This document shows positions 6,277-12,288 of a stretch of DNA of 13,480 nucleotides, one piece after another. How positions within the stretch are numbered: the stretch's first letter is position 1; each line of letters begins with the position of its first letter. The notes under the pieces are model-generated. The model was not told the origin of the DNA, made no database searches, and was given only the letters and a program-made list of their open reading frames with translations. This stretch comes from Anaerolineales bacterium. GTDB taxonomy: Bacteria; Chloroflexota; Anaerolineae; Anaerolineales; Villigracilaceae. A program made the position numbers and the translations under genes. The stretch is from NCBI GenBank assembly GCA_028689195.1, contig JAQTWR010000030.1, positions 1-13,480 on the forward strand, written 5' to 3'.

Positions 6277-6376
6277 GATCTTCTCCTTGTTTCTCCATGA
6301 CAAATTATTCAGGTTTAATACGCGGAGATTCGGCATATCCTGTGTAGAATGCGACTATAAATTAAGCATACAACGA

Positions 6377-6433
6377 ACACTCCCCAGCCGCATCCATCAG
6401 CCGGGGAGTATCCTTCTCCGCCACTTGGGGGAG
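6377..6433 (-). repeat. Two-hairpin intergenic repeat, copy 2
   Basis: On the minus strand: CTCCCCCAAGTGGCGGAG, 4-5 nt spacer, then ACTCCCCGGCT / GGCTGGGGAGT around a GATGGATGC loop. The 11-bp stem includes two G-U pairs on the minus strand that would be A-C mismatches on the plus strand. It begins 20 nt after the lipoprotein stop codon and lies 100 nt before the 253-aa gene start, so it is well placed to be a terminator for the former, a leader element for the latter, or both. Confidence 0.88.
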
Positions 6434-7413: not shown

Positions 7414-7499
7414 GGTCTTTCTCCTTTTTATGGGGCAACCCGCTGATTGATATTGGCATACGTGCGGCGCAGTGATACCCATACCTCATCATATATACA

Positions 7500-7556
7500 A
7501 AACTCCCCAACCGCATCCATCGGCTGGGGAGTTTTGTTCTAGTCCACTTGGGGGAG
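7500..7556 (-). repeat. Two-hairpin intergenic repeat, copy 3
   Basis: The minus strand has ACTCCCCAGCC / GGTTGGGGAGT around the conserved GATGGATGC loop, an 11-bp stem with one G-U pair, followed by TTTTGTATATAT. The first hairpin is altered (CTCCCCCAAGTGGACTAG). It lies 86 nt upstream of the lipoprotein start, and the T-rich tail makes this the most terminator-like copy. Confidence 0.85.
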
Positions 7557-7637: not shown

Positions 7638-7716
7638 GTCTTAAACCATGATTTGTTTGATTGAAAGATTACCCTGATTGGACATAACCTCAGCCATCAC
7701 GCCCCTAATCATGGAC
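7638..7716. repeat. Palindromic repeat with GTCTTAAACCATGATTT end
   Basis: GTCTTAAACCATGATTT at 7638-7654 and AATCATGGACAT at about 7707-7718 face each other. The same end sequence recurs inverted at 8512-8527 as AAATCATGGTTAAGAC. From memory, 'AACCATGATT...GATTAAAGGATT' palindromes are common in several phyla. It overlaps the 3' end of the GIY-YIG reading frame. The rest of the gap 7557-7704 shows nothing else I can name. Confidence 0.5.
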
Positions 7717-8067
7717 ATCCTCTTGACTTTCCTCTGTGTCACCCTGAGCGGAGCGAAGGGTTTCTGCGCCGCCTTTAGATACATACCATTCTTCGCTCAA
7801 ATCCTTCCACTTGGGATTTATAGAATCAATCAATGCTATTTTCTTTGACCTGAGCCAGCCTTTGATTTGCTTTTCTCGTGCAATTGCCGCGTTTATGTCA
7901 TTGCCTGCTTCATAATAAACGAGAAATTGAATGTTGTATTTACTGGTAAACCCTGGGACAAGTTTGTTCTTATGCTCATACACGCGCCGTATTAGGTTGT
8001 TGGTAACGCCTGTATAAAGCGTGCGGGATTTGTTGGTCATAATGTAGACATAGTATTCTTTGCTCAT
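7705..8067 (-). CDS. GIY-YIG nuclease domain protein with repeat-derived tail
   Basis: 120 aa. The single GIY-YIG domain starts at once: YYVYIMTNK (GIY strand), LYTGVTNNL (YIG strand), Arg in IRRVYEHK, and the closing KIALIDSINPKWKDLSEEWY, where such stand-alone proteins normally end (about residue 95). The remaining ~25 residues are encoded by a copy of the repeat found in the neighbouring array (7736-7764) and by palindromic sequence beyond it. The start at 8067 has AGAGG about 5 nt upstream, and the first repeat unit begins 14 nt before the ATG. Small GIY-YIG proteins of this type are uncharacterised; a DNA-cleaving role is a family-based inference. Repeat on both sides suggests mobility or repeat-mediated rearrangement. 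Confidence 0.85.
   Translation of the reverse strand: MSKEYYVYIMTNKSRTLYTGVTNNLIRRVYEHKNKLVPGFTSKYNIQFLVYYEAGNDINAAIAREKQIKGWLRSKKIALIDSINPKWKDLSEEWYVSKGGAETLRSAQGDTEESQEDVHD
7736..7764. repeat. CTGAGCG repeat copy inside GIY-YIG gene 3' end
   Basis: GTGTCACCCTGAGCGGAGCG followed by AAGGGTTTC is the same element as the half-units of the 8081-8513 array. Here it is translated in frame on the minus strand as GAETLRSAQGDT. Confidence 0.8.
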
Positions 8068-8080
8068 AAAACCTCTGTCT

Positions 8081-8513
8081 GTGTCGCTCTGAGCGGAGTG
8101 AAGAGCCTCTACCGTTGTCTCGGGGATTCTTCGCTGCGCTCAGAATGACAAGTCCCTTTAACTCGCCCTTCACTGCCCGCTTGGACAGTTCCAGCCCGTG
8201 TCGCTCTGAGCGGAGTGAAGAGCCTCTACCGTTGTCTCGGGGATTCTTCGCTGCGCTCAGAATGACAAGTCCCTTTGACTCGCCCTTCACTGCCCGCTTG
8301 GACAGTTCCAGCCCGTGTCGCTCTGAGCGGAGTGAAGAGCCTCTACCGTTGTCTCAGGGATTCTTCGCTGCGCTCAGAATGACAAGTCTCTTTGACTCGC
8401 CCTTCTCTGCCCGCTTGGACAGTTCCAGCCCGTGTCGCTCTGAGCGGAGTGAAGAGCCTCTACCGTTGTCTCAGGGATTCTTCGCTGCGCTCAGAATGAC
8501 AAGTCCCTTTGAA
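8081..8513. repeat. Tandem array of 117-bp units with internal inverted halves
   Basis: Units begin at 8081, 8198, 8315 and 8432, an exact 117-bp period. The last is truncated at about 8513. Units differ by only a few substitutions (for example cggggatt versus cagggatt). Each unit contains two inverted copies of one element: GTCGCTCTGAGCGGAGTGAA and, on the other strand, GTCATTCTGAGCGCAGCGAA, separated by CCTCTACCGTTGTC, so each unit can fold into a hairpin. About 48 bp of non-palindromic spacer completes the unit. The array fills the whole gap between the GIY-YIG gene and the restriction-modification gene. Open frames across it on either strand are repeat translations, not genes. Confidence 0.95.
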
Positions 8514-8527
8514 ATCATGGTTAAGAC
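8512..8527. repeat. Inverted copy of the GTCTTAAACCATGATTT end
   Basis: AAATCATGGTTAAGAC is the reverse complement of the 7638-7654 sequence with one base missing. It contains the stop codon of the restriction-modification gene. Together with the left copy it encloses the GIY-YIG gene and the 117-bp array (about 890 bp). Confidence 0.55.
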
Positions 8528-11500
8528 GCCTTCCCTTCCACAATCCTAATCTCTTCCTCGCTCAACCCGTACAGTTGATAGACTAACTCGTCAATCATCC
8601 TATCCGTGGACGTGATTTGACGTTGAATTAACTCCCGTTCCTGATCTTTCGCCGCAGACAGCGACTTGTGCAGCGAGAGCATTTGCTCCACCAGCGTGAC
8701 CATCTTGTCGTGCATGGACTTCTCGGTGGCGTCGTTGAAGTTGATCGGGCGGATGGGAAGTTGCTCAATAAAACGACGTGCATAAGAAAAATACCCACCG
8801 CGAAACGGCGTAGATAATGTTTTCAAACAACTATCAAGTAATTGTGAATTAAGTAAGCCTAATATATATTTTTCTGATAATCCGCTTTGGAGGTTTACTA
8901 AAATCCCATAACCGCCAGCATTTCCACCGCCAACAAAACAATATTCTGCTTGATTATCAAGTGTAAAAGAGCCTTGCTTTGAAAGAACTTGAGTTAAGAT
9001 TTTATTTTTAGTCATCTCAAAAATATTTTGATTTCTACCAAATTGCCACCATTCAGGTACATGCCATTTTCCACCTTCACGTGCCTCTAATAACTTACGA
9101 ACTTCAAGCAAATATTCCCAAGTCAATGGGTATTGTTTTTTTATTTCATTCTCACTGAGTAAAGTCGCCTTGTTCTCATTTGTCTTGTATGGATAAATAA
9201 TGACATTGACAGGCTTGTCTAAATCATAACGACCTATTTCAGCACCTTTTAGTAATGAGCGAGTAATTCCCAATTCAATATCAATTTCTTTTTCAAGTGC
9301 TTTTGAGTAAACTCGCAATATAGTTTGATTTTGTCTAACTACTTTTACAATAAATACGGGATCAGCCCCGGTCACCAAACCTTGAAAGATTCTATCTGCT
9401 ATATCACTTAACTTCACAGGCATTTGACTTAATTTCTCAAATAACTCTGCGCCTTCCCCGACTGTAAAGTTCCATTCACTTGCAGTTACAAGGCTGGCGT
9501 TGATCTTGCCTGAGACCTCCGAGGTCTCTAAGACCTCGGAGGTCTGAACACGCCAACTTTCCAAATCCTGTACCTTTATAAAGTCAAATTCATCATGTCC
9601 TGTTTTATCGAGGAACATCAAACAAGTGTAAGTTGTTGCGCCGCTAAAGACTTGCTGGTCGCTAAAGTGTACGACTTCGGCAAGATGTTTACCATTTGCA
9701 ATTACGCCACGTAAGGGTTCGCCGTATTGAGCATTGAAGAATTTATGCGGCAGAATAAAACCTAGTCTTCCTTTTGGGTTAAGAAGACTCAAGCCTTTCT
9801 CGACGAAGACAACATAAATATCATAATTGCCTTTGCTGGCGGCTTTATATTGTTTCTTGTAAAACTCAACATCAACTTGCGAAGTTTCCTGCAAAGTTTG
9901 AATACGAATATACGGCGGATTCCCAATCACCACGTCAAACCCGCCGCCCTTAGTCCCCCCAAATTCCTTTGGAATTTGGGGGGATGTCACGGTACTCCGT
10001 GACAGGGGGGTAAACACTTCGGGGAATTCATCCTGCCAATCAAACGGCTTCACCCGTTTCATCTCGTCCAAATCGCCAAACATCTGCCCGCTAAAATAGT
10101 CATGCCCGATCAAGGCATTCCCGTTCTTAATGTTCTTATTCAGGTTCGGCAGAATATGTTCCTCATCGAACATCTTCAACTGTCCTGGGTCTTCCACCAC
10201 TTTGAGCAGTAGCGAAAGTTTGGTCACTTCCACCGCCTGCGGGTCGAGGTCAACACCGTAAATATTATTAAGCAGGATGCGCTTCTTTTCCTCCACGCTC
10301 AAAATGTAAGACTTATTATCAGCCGTCAGTAAAACCTTGCTTTTCACATGCTTCTCAGGGCTGTTAGACACATACCAATTCAAATGCCAATCCAGCAAAT
10401 ATTGATACGCCCCCAACAAAAACGAACCCGACCCGCACGCGGGATCAACAATCTTTAATTGCGAAACTTCCACAGGAGTAAGACTATTGTCACTCTGAGC
10501 GGAGTGAAGAGTCTCTGTCTTTCGGGCGGGAGACTCTTCGCTATTGCTCAGGGTGACACCTTTCTGCTCTCTGTTCTCTAATATCTTCCCCACCGTATTC
10601 TTCACAATATAATCCACAATATACGCAGGCGTGTAATATACCCCGCCCGCCTTGCGTACCTCGGGCTTCTCTTCCACTTTGGCATTCCCACCCGCCGTCA
10701 GGCGAATCACCTTGCCTAAAAAGCGTTCATACACCGAGCCAAGAATTTCAGTAGGGATGTAGTTAAACGCATACGGGCTGGGGTAATATAAATCTTTGAT
10801 AATGTCTTTCAGGACTTTATCGTCAATCTCCAAAGCCGGACTGAGCGTATCTGGGTTCTCGCGGTCTTTATCCTTTTTAAAATGGAACAAGCCGGAGTTA
10901 TAGCGCGCGTCTGCCTCGGTAAAGAGTTTAAGCAGGCTCGGATAAAGTTCCGCGCCCTCAGAGATTTCAAACAAGCGTCTATCTTTCTCCATCCCGCGCT
11001 CTTCCGCGATCCGTAAAAAGATAATGCGGTCAATTGTCATCTGCACCGCAAAGTTCACCTGCTCTTCGTTCAAGTTCAGGTTTTTATTGCGCGTGGCAAT
11101 ATTTCGGGCAAGCGTCTCGCGCCACTGCTCTATCTCTTCCAGAAAAGCCGCGTCAACCTCCTGCGTGCCTTTCTTGCCTTTTATACCATCCTTATACTTA
11201 TCCAGCGCGCCCTTGCGAATGGCATCCGGCGAAAAAAGAGCCGCGATCTCATCCCACCGCTCCACATACTCCTTGTAATGGAATAGTTCAATGCGCCCCG
11301 TTGCCGCCTTATCTTTGGAATAATTGGGGCGTGTGCGGCAGTCATAAATAGCAAAATGTTCAAAATCGGTCAGGATATTAATTGGAATTCGCGCGCTCCA
11401 CCCATACCGGCGAATTTGGAACGCCGCGTCAAGGCTGCTTTCCACCTTTACCGAAGGCTTCTTGGCTTCCACCAGAAAATCAAAAGTGTCTTTGCCCGTG

Positions 11501-11736
11501 CGAAAGGCATAATCCGCCTTTTTCTGCTGACCGTCAATCTCAACAGAGTGTTCATGCGCTACTTCCTTATTGCGCTCGTCGTAGCCTTTCTTATTATCCA
11601 CATCCCAACCCAACGCTTCAAAGAACGGGTCGAGGAATTGGCGGCGCAACTCCGTCTCGTTCTTATGTGAACGATACTCATTGATATTTTGCTCGAAAGT
11701 TTCTACCAGTTGTTTAATTCGGTCGGGAGCGGGCAT
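8521..11736 (-). CDS. Single-chain restriction-modification enzyme (Type IIG-like)
   Basis: 1071 aa. One polypeptide should cut and methylate DNA. The N-terminal nuclease domain has the PD-(D/E)XK core: Asp75 in KKADYAF, then Glu90-Ala-Lys92 in FLVEAKKPS. A helical connector follows. The N6-adenine methylase has GGVYYTPAYIVDYI, SAM motif I DPACGSGSF (from Asp431) and catalytic NPPY (606-609) in FDVVIGNPPYIRI. The C-terminal target-recognition region spans about 750-985 and is visibly AT-rich. A helical end closes with YQLYGLSEEEIRIVEG, typical of the family. The ATG at 11736 has GGAG 5 nt upstream; an upstream in-frame ATG at 11784 would start in a palindrome. Three palindromic repeats lie in frame at residues about 393-418, 577-594 and 731-742, adding some 55 residues without breaking the frame. 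No separate R, M or S gene adjoins. Confidence 0.93.
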   Translation of the reverse strand: MPAPDRIKQLVETFEQNINEYRSHKNETELRRQFLDPFFEALGWDVDNKKGYDERNKEVAHEHSVEIDGQQKKADYAFRTGKDTFDFLVEAKKPSVKVESSLDAAFQIRRYGWSARIPINILTDFEHFAIYDCRTRPNYSKDKAATGRIELFHYKEYVERWDEIAALFSPDAIRKGALDKYKDGIKGKKGTQEVDAAFLEEIEQWRETLARNIATRNKNLNLNEEQVNFAVQMTIDRIIFLRIAEERGMEKDRRLFEISEGAELYPSLLKLFTEADARYNSGLFHFKKDKDRENPDTLSPALEIDDKVLKDIIKDLYYPSPYAFNYIPTEILGSVYERFLGKVIRLTAGGNAKVEEKPEVRKAGGVYYTPAYIVDYIVKNTVGKILENREQKGVTLSNSEESPARKTETLHSAQSDNSLTPVEVSQLKIVDPACGSGSFLLGAYQYLLDWHLNWYVSNSPEKHVKSKVLLTADNKSYILSVEEKKRILLNNIYGVDLDPQAVEVTKLSLLLKVVEDPGQLKMFDEEHILPNLNKNIKNGNALIGHDYFSGQMFGDLDEMKRVKPFDWQDEFPEVFTPLSRSTVTSPQIPKEFGGTKGGGFDVVIGNPPYIRIQTLQETSQVDVEFYKKQYKAASKGNYDIYVVFVEKGLSLLNPKGRLGFILPHKFFNAQYGEPLRGVIANGKHLAEVVHFSDQQVFSGATTYTCLMFLDKTGHDEFDFIKVQDLESWRVQTSEVLETSEVSGKINASLVTASEWNFTVGEGAELFEKLSQMPVKLSDIADRIFQGLVTGADPVFIVKVVRQNQTILRVYSKALEKEIDIELGITRSLLKGAEIGRYDLDKPVNVIIYPYKTNENKATLLSENEIKKQYPLTWEYLLEVRKLLEAREGGKWHVPEWWQFGRNQNIFEMTKNKILTQVLSKQGSFTLDNQAEYCFVGGGNAGGYGILVNLQSGLSEKYILGLLNSQLLDSCLKTLSTPFRGGYFSYARRFIEQLPIRPINFNDATEKSMHDKMVTLVEQMLSLHKSLSAAKDQERELIQRQITSTDRMIDELVYQLYGLSEEEIRIVEGKAS
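9513..9545. repeat. In-frame palindrome AGACCTCCGAGGTCT in RM gene
   Basis: AGACCTCCGAGGTCT (9513-9527), CTA, AGACCTCGGAGGTCT (9531-9545): a perfect 15-bp inverted repeat whose arms are themselves nearly palindromic. It encodes QTSEVLETSEVSG (about 731-743), a repeated TSEV peptide, next to the AT-rich target-recognition region. Confidence 0.9.
9955..10010. repeat. In-frame double palindrome in RM gene before NPPY
   Basis: CCCCCCAAATTCC / GGAATTTGGGGGG (9955-9967 and 9971-9983) is a perfect 13-bp stem with a 3-nt loop. TGTCACGG / CCGTGACA (9985-9992 and 9997-10004) is an 8-bp stem, followed by GGGGGG. It is translated as residues about 577-594, 12 residues before the catalytic NPPY motif. 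The AAATTC core and G/C-run edges resemble the palindrome at 11938-11980. Confidence 0.88.
10488..10558. repeat. In-frame CTGAGCG inverted repeat in RM gene
   Basis: The left arm TGTCACTCTGAGCGGAGTGA (10488 on) and the right arm, in reverse complement TGTCACCCTGAGCAATAGCG (ending 10558), flank a 15-nt loop. It is the same family as the 117-bp array. It is translated as about residues 393-418 (VTLSNSEESPARKTETLHSA and on), 13 residues before SAM motif I. Confidence 0.92.
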
Positions 11737-11745
11737 AGTTTCTCC

Positions 11746-11775
11746 ATTATAGCAACGATACATAAGACCTGACAG
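11746..11775 (-). promoter_or_regulatory. Possible promoter of RM gene (TGCTATAAT)
   Basis: The minus strand carries TATAAT at 11751-11746 preceded by TGC (extended -10). CTGTCA lies 18 nt upstream at 11775-11770, inside the palindrome arm, and matches TTGACA at four of six positions. A start about 7 nt downstream would leave almost no 5' leader and would exclude the GGAG, so this is either a near-leaderless promoter or a chance match. Confidence 0.3.
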
Positions 11776-11797
11776 GTTGTCCAAACCTGTCAGGTCT
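11765..11797. repeat. Palindrome AGACCTGACAGGTT upstream of RM gene
   Basis: AGACCTGACAGGTT (11765-11778), 5-nt loop, AACCTGTCAGGTCT (11784-11797): a perfect 14-bp inverted repeat. It resembles the AGACCT...AGGTCT palindrome inside the gene at 9513-9545. It lies 29 nt upstream of the RM start codon. Confidence 0.85.
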
Positions 11798-11810
11798 GGA
11801 GCGTAAAAAT

Positions 11811-11910
11811 ATACTTACATTTTTAAAAAATGTACTTACATCTTTAAGAAAATGTAAGTACATTTTTGGGAAAAAGTACTTACATTTTTTAAAAATATAC
11901 TGACATTTTG
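11811..11910. repeat. Five ~22-bp AT-rich direct repeats upstream of RM gene
   Basis: The core TACTTACAT occurs at 11812, 11833 and 11877, with variants TAAGTACAT in the third unit (about 11855) and TACTGACAT at 11898. Spacing is 21-22 bp throughout, close to two helical turns. Cores are separated by A/T runs (TTTTTAAAAA type). The array ends about 75 nt upstream of the RM start codon. Regular phasing suggests protein-binding sites or curved DNA; it may instead be a degenerate simple repeat. Confidence 0.75.
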
Positions 11911-11937: not shown

Positions 11938-11980
11938 CCCTCCCCAAATTCGACAGAAGTACCGTCGAATTTGGGGAGGG
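11938..11980. repeat. 17-bp perfect palindrome CCCTCCCCAAATTCGAC
   Basis: CCCTCCCCAAATTCGAC (11938-11954), 9-nt loop, GTCGAATTTGGGGAGGG (11964-11980). G/C-rich flanks (CCCGACCTTCGGTCACC to the left, CTGGGGAGGGG to the right) probably belong to the same element. It begins immediately after the stop codon of the HU-like fragment on the minus strand. Confidence 0.88.
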
Positions 11981-12190: not shown

Positions 12191-12222
12191 AAAAATATAA
12201 AAAAAGAGGCGCGCGCCTCTTT
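12191..12222 (-). terminator. Intrinsic terminator
   Basis: A perfect palindrome, AAAGAGGCGCGCGCCTCTTT (12203-12222), is followed on the minus strand by TTTTATATTTTT. The strong GC stem plus U-tract should end transcription of the paralogous gene pair at 12508-13480. On the plus strand there is no extended T-run. Confidence 0.85.
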
Positions 12223-12235
12223 GTCATATATGTAA

Positions 12236-12288
12236 ACACTCCCCAGACACATCAGCCGGGGAGTGTTATTCTCCGCCACTTGGGGGAG
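12236..12288 (-). repeat. Two-hairpin intergenic repeat, copy 4
   Basis: A shortened copy: the loop lacks four bases, but both outer stems (ACTCCCC / GGGGAGT and CTCC...GGAG) are kept. Two stem positions are G-U on the minus strand. It lies between the paralogous gene pair and the terminator at 12191-12222, and 142 nt upstream of the HU-like fragment. Confidence 0.82.

Follow-up and report, generated by a model that had tools for sequence, protein, structure and literature searches.

In this genome a CGTC-like REP dimer, which is a small repeat of the non-autonomous kind, has very probably been inserted in frame into a Type IIG-like restriction-modification (RM) gene, at a length-tolerant stretch of the encoded protein. 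The genome is a 2.85-Mb draft of 422 contigs (82% complete), and the window, by which we mean the whole stretch of DNA that was analysed (13,480 nucleotides), is its contig C4.

The repeat in the RM gene and its neighbourhood

The RM gene (Eco57I-type restriction-methylase) is located on the minus strand at 8521–11736, within an ORF that spans 8521–11784 and starts with TTG at 11784. Counted from the ATG at 11736, the protein has 1071 aa with the Pfam domains HSDR_N, Eco57I methylase, N6_Mtase, and TaqI_C, and the catalytic motifs VEAKK (residues 89–93), DPACGSGSF (431–439), and NPPY (606–609) are present in it. This protein probably works. The repeat, designated here as site A, occupies 71 bp at 10488–10558 (minus strand), encodes residues 393–417 in frame, and ends 13 residues ahead of methylase motif I. 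An earlier sequence-only reading had placed a CTGAGCG inverted repeat at 10488–10558, coding in frame just before DPACGSGSF, and both arms were indeed found there, inside the minus-strand ORF.

Arm 1 (10488–10515, plus strand) is TGTCACTCTGAGCGGAGTGAAGAGTCTC, with the tag TGTC and of the ACT...AGT subtype. Arm 2 (10530–10558, minus strand) is GAGACTCTTCGCTATTGCTCAGGGTGACA, with the same tag and ACC...AGT, its own outer triplet being one pair short. Folding of site A gave −35.8 kcal/mol (z −8.9) as single-stranded RNA and −18.3 (z −6.9) as DNA. This copy is atypical both in its end-to-end fold and in the missing pair of its second arm. On the coding strand just outside the element (window 10559–10578) lies the roughly 7-periodic sequence GAGAACAGAGAGCAGAAAGG, whose residues are also missing in homologues.

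We aligned the RM protein with 16 ORFs from related genomes, two of which (L076 and L080) end before site A, leaving 14 that cover it. A block of ~30 residues (~90 nt, slightly longer than the element) is missing in all 14; in L070 and L073 the position is occupied by one to a few additional residues, still without the block. In the protein search, the alignments with the best homologues stop near query residue 405 and restart near 435 (numbered from the TTG at 11784). The alignment with homologues which the sequence-only reading had proposed thus finds the block in no covering homologue, and site A is therefore an insertion. Close homologues with similar residues but unrelated DNA were not seen among these 14.

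Site A has a close neighbour. A tandem array at 8081–8512 (plus strand), with 3.7 copies of a 117-bp unit, holds four dimers of the same family. The core 19-mer of arm 1, CTCTGAGCGGAGTGAAGAG, occurs five times in the 2.85-Mb genome when up to two mismatches are allowed, always in the window: four copies are in the array and one is in the RM gene. We infer that arm 1 and the local array share a recent source. The RM copy could then have been produced by local copying or gene conversion of the array, which lies ~2 kb away, rather than by transposition, and the confinement of the 19-mer to these two places agrees with this. However, arm 2 of the RM gene is of the ACC type and the second arm of the array belongs to a different subtype, and even in arm 1 two compensatory changes separate the outer triplets (ACT/AGT in the RM gene versus GCT/AGC in the array), so we consider this origin rather unlikely. 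The claim that the RM gene contains the same element as the array is consequently true of arm 1 but not of arm 2.

The window has several other repeats. A single arm at 7733–7765 (plus strand) stands at the 3′ end of a GIY-YIG ORF (7705–8067, minus strand), where it is in frame and forms the C-terminal tail. A plus-strand ORF of 144 aa at 8115–8549 is built of the array; its match to ArgoL1 is below the Pfam cut-off, and therefore the ORF is probably spurious. Upstream of the RM gene, at 11805–11909, there is an array of 4.9 copies of a 21-bp unit, AAAAATGTACTTACATTTTTA, inverted members included. A 74-bp hairpin repeat, CACTCCCC...GGGGAGT, is present in four copies (2500–2573, 6360–6433, 7483–7556, and 12215–12288), with 61–82% identity to the first copy.

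Dispersal and architecture of the unit

If site A has been inserted, then we can ask: Does the same unit occur elsewhere? The arm pattern with at most one mismatch was found 10 times in the window versus 0.1 times in base shuffles, and the exact pattern 33 times in the whole genome versus 0 for the pattern read backwards, which identifies site A as a member of a dispersed repeat. A search of 41 genomes gave 273 arm matches, with at least one in 33 genomes; the reversed control gave 8 matches in 7 genomes, so that genomes with one or two matches prove nothing. The consensus element is approximately TGTCATTCTGAGCGNAGCGAAGAATCTC, a short spacer, and a second arm in inverted orientation, the commonest dimer lengths being 70 and 69 bp. 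A literature search with the arm sequence found no related description, and no report of in-frame copies was found in the literature on REPs of Chloroflexota; the available text of PMC12306157, whose table includes three Chloroflexota genomes, uses neither the word intragenic nor in-frame.

For a closer comparison we used 118 distinct GTC-tagged places from 21 genomes, to which this genome contributed 31; the sample consists of the fetched matches and not of all (G002 and G011, for example, have 28 and 29 matches, and one locus was read from each). Among 141 unique arms, 110 have the tag (TGTC in 107, CGTC in 3) and 90 have the tail CTC. The outer triplets are complementary within the arm in 95 of the 110 GTC-tagged arms versus 4 of the 31 untagged ones, and the paired triplets are varied (ATT/AAT, ACC/GGT, GTT/AAC, ATG/CAT, GCT/AGC, and others). 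The consensus arm folds into 5 bp, a 2+2 internal loop, 2 bp, and a 3-base loop with z −0.5, while RM arm 1 alone (z −1.3) prefers another hairpin. Single arms thus fold no better than shuffles, and the local hairpin rests on covariation. Mini-hairpins with GNA loops are exceptionally stable. The loop of one arm often has extra, sometimes palindromic, bases (L225, L028, L016, L048, L049), such as GCCAAAGAACGGC in L225, which gives the impression that further insertions go into the hairpin loop.

By a fuzzy rule, 69 of the 118 places are two-armed. In the 46 dimers that were parsed, three of which are identical to another, the outer triplets pair locally in 40 left and 36 right arms, whereas matches between the arms number 0 for outer and 1 for inner triplets. 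When arms were reshuffled among dimers, the mean was 8.1 outer matches, and none of 2000 shuffles reached 0. A separate count on a set that may contain duplicates gave 38 left, 34 right, 0 outer, and 1 inner of 44. Because the outer triplets pair within arms and never between them, the dimers are made of unlike units: the unit is the half, and the element is an inverted dimer of two unlike hairpins with tags outward, not one palindrome. One possible reason for the unlike arms is the avoidance of a perfect long palindrome.

These figures also bear on a second alternative, namely a MITE, in which terminal inverted repeats would bound a single long palindrome and a transposase would read both ends. 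Its ends are in fact inverted copies (TGTC...GACA), and the RM copy does fold as one long hairpin. Pairing within arms with none between them, where about eight outer matches are expected, speaks against this model, as does the lack of an arm-flanked transposase among those checked, which were Y1 transposases; we regard a MITE as improbable. The palindrome described by the sequence-only reading is real as an inverted repeat that folds from end to end in the RM copy, but the unit behind it is a dimer of locally paired, unlike hairpins.

RAYT was also considered as the mobiliser and rejected. A search with PF01797 across the 41 genomes listed 143 matches, and at none of the 49 distinct Y1_Tnp loci examined was an arm (at most two mismatches) found in a flank of up to 1.5 kb.

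Repeats within proteins of the genus

The place of the insertion is itself a variable one. In BrxX, a relative with a solved structure, a long loop without repeats stands before motif I, and the alignment across it has no large gap; CamA has a short loop there. The long natural loop of BrxX weakens the idea of a loop unique to this protein; the loop before motif I is length-variable by nature in the wider family, and its repeat content is the unusual part. In the RM protein this loop is probably exposed. That the segment is just an ordinary long native loop whose DNA is palindromic by chance is hardly credible, even though BrxX aligns across it, when 14/14 covering homologues are short and the repeat family of its DNA has 33 exact arms in this genome versus none in the control.

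The insertion of a REP dimer can be pictured as follows. Each half is its own hairpin unit, which by the consensus has the TGTC tag, an outer stem of 5 bp, a G.A/A.G step, and a GC-closed three-base loop. Two units of unlike subtypes are joined in inverted orientation with their tags outward, one arm probably sharing its source with the neighbouring array, and the dimer very probably inserted just before motif I, leaving the catalytic motifs in place. Stop codons are lacking in at least one of six frames in 59 of 66 two-armed copies; since most of these ~70-bp copies leave one to three frames open, translation can pass through an insertion whose net length is divisible by three. The copy at site A probably survived because it fell in a length-tolerant stretch and the catalytic motifs were kept.

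Two more palindromic stretches lie in the same gene, both in frame on the minus strand. Site B (9946–10011, residues 576–597) consists of two adjacent hairpins (9955–9983 and 9985–10004) and is missing in 11 of 13 covering homologues, the other two (L073 and L077) carrying different inserts there. Upstream of the RM gene, at 11938–11980, a 17-bp perfect inverted repeat, CCCTCCCCAAATTCGAC, resembles part of site B in its wording. Site C (9505–9549, residues 730–744) is GACCTCCGAGGTCT present twice in inverted orientation. It was found in six homologues (L066–L071) and not at that place in the other seven examined. The DNA of these six is GACTTCCGAAGTC-like instead of GACCTCCGAGGTC, the paired changes preserving the palindrome. 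Two further contigs of this genome, C209 and C326, have the site C palindrome as well, and it was found in 16 of the 41 genomes (control 0).

How often does the site A element lie inside other genes? We required an ORF of at least 150 aa with at least 25 codons on each side of the element, and 13 of the 118 tagged places lay inside such ORFs, a count from which an in-frame preference is not inferable because the search demanded an open frame and genes broken by the element fall outside it. By judgement, seven were accepted as real genes: RM, PrmA, heparinase-like L144, kinase-like L054, LysA-like L064 with one arm only, the LutB–LutC fusion L167, and L154, a long ORF without a Pfam match. The six that were dropped are L174, L201, a pair from the array of the window, and a pair from L036; in L201 the element precedes the probable start. 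Two loci that the tagged count does not include, L210 with the tag ATC and L102 with no GTC tag, also appear to have in-frame copies. The comparison with element-free homologues covered RM, PrmA, LysA-like, and LutBC. The arm is read in at least two frames, one giving CHSERSEES-like peptides (PrmA, L154) and the other NVILSEAKN-like peptides (L054, L167), so no particular peptide is favoured. The proposal that other genes carry the element is thus borne out in the genus (PrmA, LutB–LutC linker, LysA-like), whereas in this genome only one of 31 tagged places, the RM copy, lies in a long gene, besides the terminal case at the GIY-YIG ORF; here the element is mostly intergenic.

In PrmA the element again lies just before motif I, where PrmA of T. 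thermophilus has 7 residues versus 28. A PrmA search gave matches in 59 of 61 genomes, some of them weak, and no match in the genome studied here; the best 30 loci were read. Their loops before motif I are 15–87 nt long. Recognisable repeats were assigned by eye to the loops of 16 of the 30 species; they are of seven types (GAAAGAN words in 6 loops, GACCATN words in 4, the REP dimer in L224 and L225, and four others in one each). The remaining 14 loops are short or unassigned. We scored hairpins in 60-base windows centred on the loops: z ≤ −3 was reached in 13 of 30 PrmA loops versus 12 of 1157 control windows from these genes. Base matching within PrmA loops at lag 7 was 0.525 versus 0.21–0.31 at the other lags from 3 to 12, and as 7 is not a multiple of 3 this points to repeats of DNA rather than of peptide. 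The loop families, labelled by eye, required 16 changes on a tree of 29 species versus a shuffled mean of 14.9; the PrmA loop repeats are without phylogenetic signal.

The 7-base words, in which one position is free (GAAAGAN, GACCATN, and others), form inverted arrays that are both dispersed in the genus and found inside PrmA (L224–L253), and no known class was identified for them. Dispersed GAAAGAN triplets were found in 20 of 41 genomes; in most of these their number far exceeds that of the reversed control (58 versus 1 in G004), though not in all (1 versus 2 in G010). GACCATN pairs are dispersed in 18 of 41 (control 0).

The LutBC linker is 78–120 nt long in 30 species, and about five were read as the REP dimer or its remains. 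It is about equally long in all 30, so the element there is not established as an added insertion. LutBC families also gave no phylogenetic signal (13 changes versus a shuffled mean of 13.1). In the LysA-like loop one arm was seen in 2 of 30. The GGAGTC family stands in the LysA-like loop of G001 (14 genome copies) and in the LutBC linker of G003 (8 genome copies); elsewhere there are 8 copies in G009 and 0 or 1 in the others, including G014 and G021 with loosely similar linkers (control 0). The idea that all loops are palindromes was rejected, as z ≤ −3 was reached in 1 of 30 LutBC linkers versus 7 of 618 controls and in 1 of 30 LysA-like loops versus 20 of 1101. Whole-loop scoring, which has no matched control, gave z ≤ −3 in 11, 10, and 3 of 30 for PrmA, LutBC, and LysA, respectively. 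Matching at lag 7 was raised in LysA (0.399) and hardly in LutBC (0.309).

We tentatively suggest that these loops and linkers may be docking sites, where a lineage-specific process writes in-frame repeats in and out with a turnover fast enough to erase phylogenetic signal, though the balance tips against it. This reading is weakened by the nearly half of PrmA loops without an assignable repeat and by the absence of a hairpin excess in the matched windows of LutBC and LysA. If it were true, protein loops would record the repeat-writing process. With in-frame repeats, whether related to the element or not, serving as loops and linkers of ordinary enzymes in sister species, the genus seems to let selfish DNA stand as spare protein sequence. 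The recurrence of CGTC-like dimers with unlike arms and of unrelated families in core-enzyme loops and linkers across ~30 species would amount to a replicated natural experiment in the conversion of selfish DNA into protein sequence.

Comparison with known repeats

In-frame repeats are best known from Rickettsia. The Rickettsia-specific RPE, of 105–146 bp, have been reviewed together with other in-frame small repeats (PMC2229807). In the available part of Di Nocera et al. 2013, in-frame CGTC REPs coding 20–30 residues are reported outside Rickettsia too, and rickettsial RPE-4, RPE-6, and neisserial dRS3 are classed among CGTC REPs (PMC3733652). The parallel with Rickettsia drawn by the sequence-only reading for a repeat from another organism is therefore right about the frame but describes nothing new in kind. 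The element resembles RPE in its in-frame insertion in conserved genes (RM, PrmA, LysA-like, and the LutBC linker), and differs in length, ~70 bp in general and 71 bp in the RM copy.

As described in the same part of PMC3733652, CGTC-tagged REPs have CGTC, TGTC, or CCTC at one hairpin end, complementary AT at the first two stem positions almost invariably, a stem of 8–9 bp, a loop of 4–5 bases, and an unpaired tail which is mostly CCA; they are predominantly inverted dimers and apparently lack a dedicated transposase. Our element shares with them the CGTC/TGTC tag, the small hairpin unit, the inverted dimers, the dispersal, and some in-frame copies, and no flanking transposase was seen here in the class checked, Y1 transposases. 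In contrast, AT fills the first two stem positions in only 49 of the 110 tagged arms, the tail is CTC and not CCA, and the dimer arms are unlike. As the AT start and the CCA tail are missing, we name it CGTC-like. Chloroflexi is absent from the five phyla that the available text of PMC3733652 gives for CGTC repeats; for Chloroflexi it gives GTAG repeats. The mobiliser of CGTC-type repeats is an open question there (PMC3733652), and the genus offers many genomes in which to seek it.

In the REPIN/RAYT system, as in our case, two inverted hairpin units make one element (PMC3116915, PMC3733652), but its tag is GTAG and the RAYT gene is flanked by the repeat, while here the tag is TGTC and no Y1 transposase gene flanked by arms was found at the 49 loci. 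The intragenic MITEs ERIC and NEMIS are likewise small non-autonomous elements that make in-frame gene fusions (PMC2229807). According to the available part of that source they are single palindromes with terminal repeats, whereas the element described here is a dimer of locally paired units.
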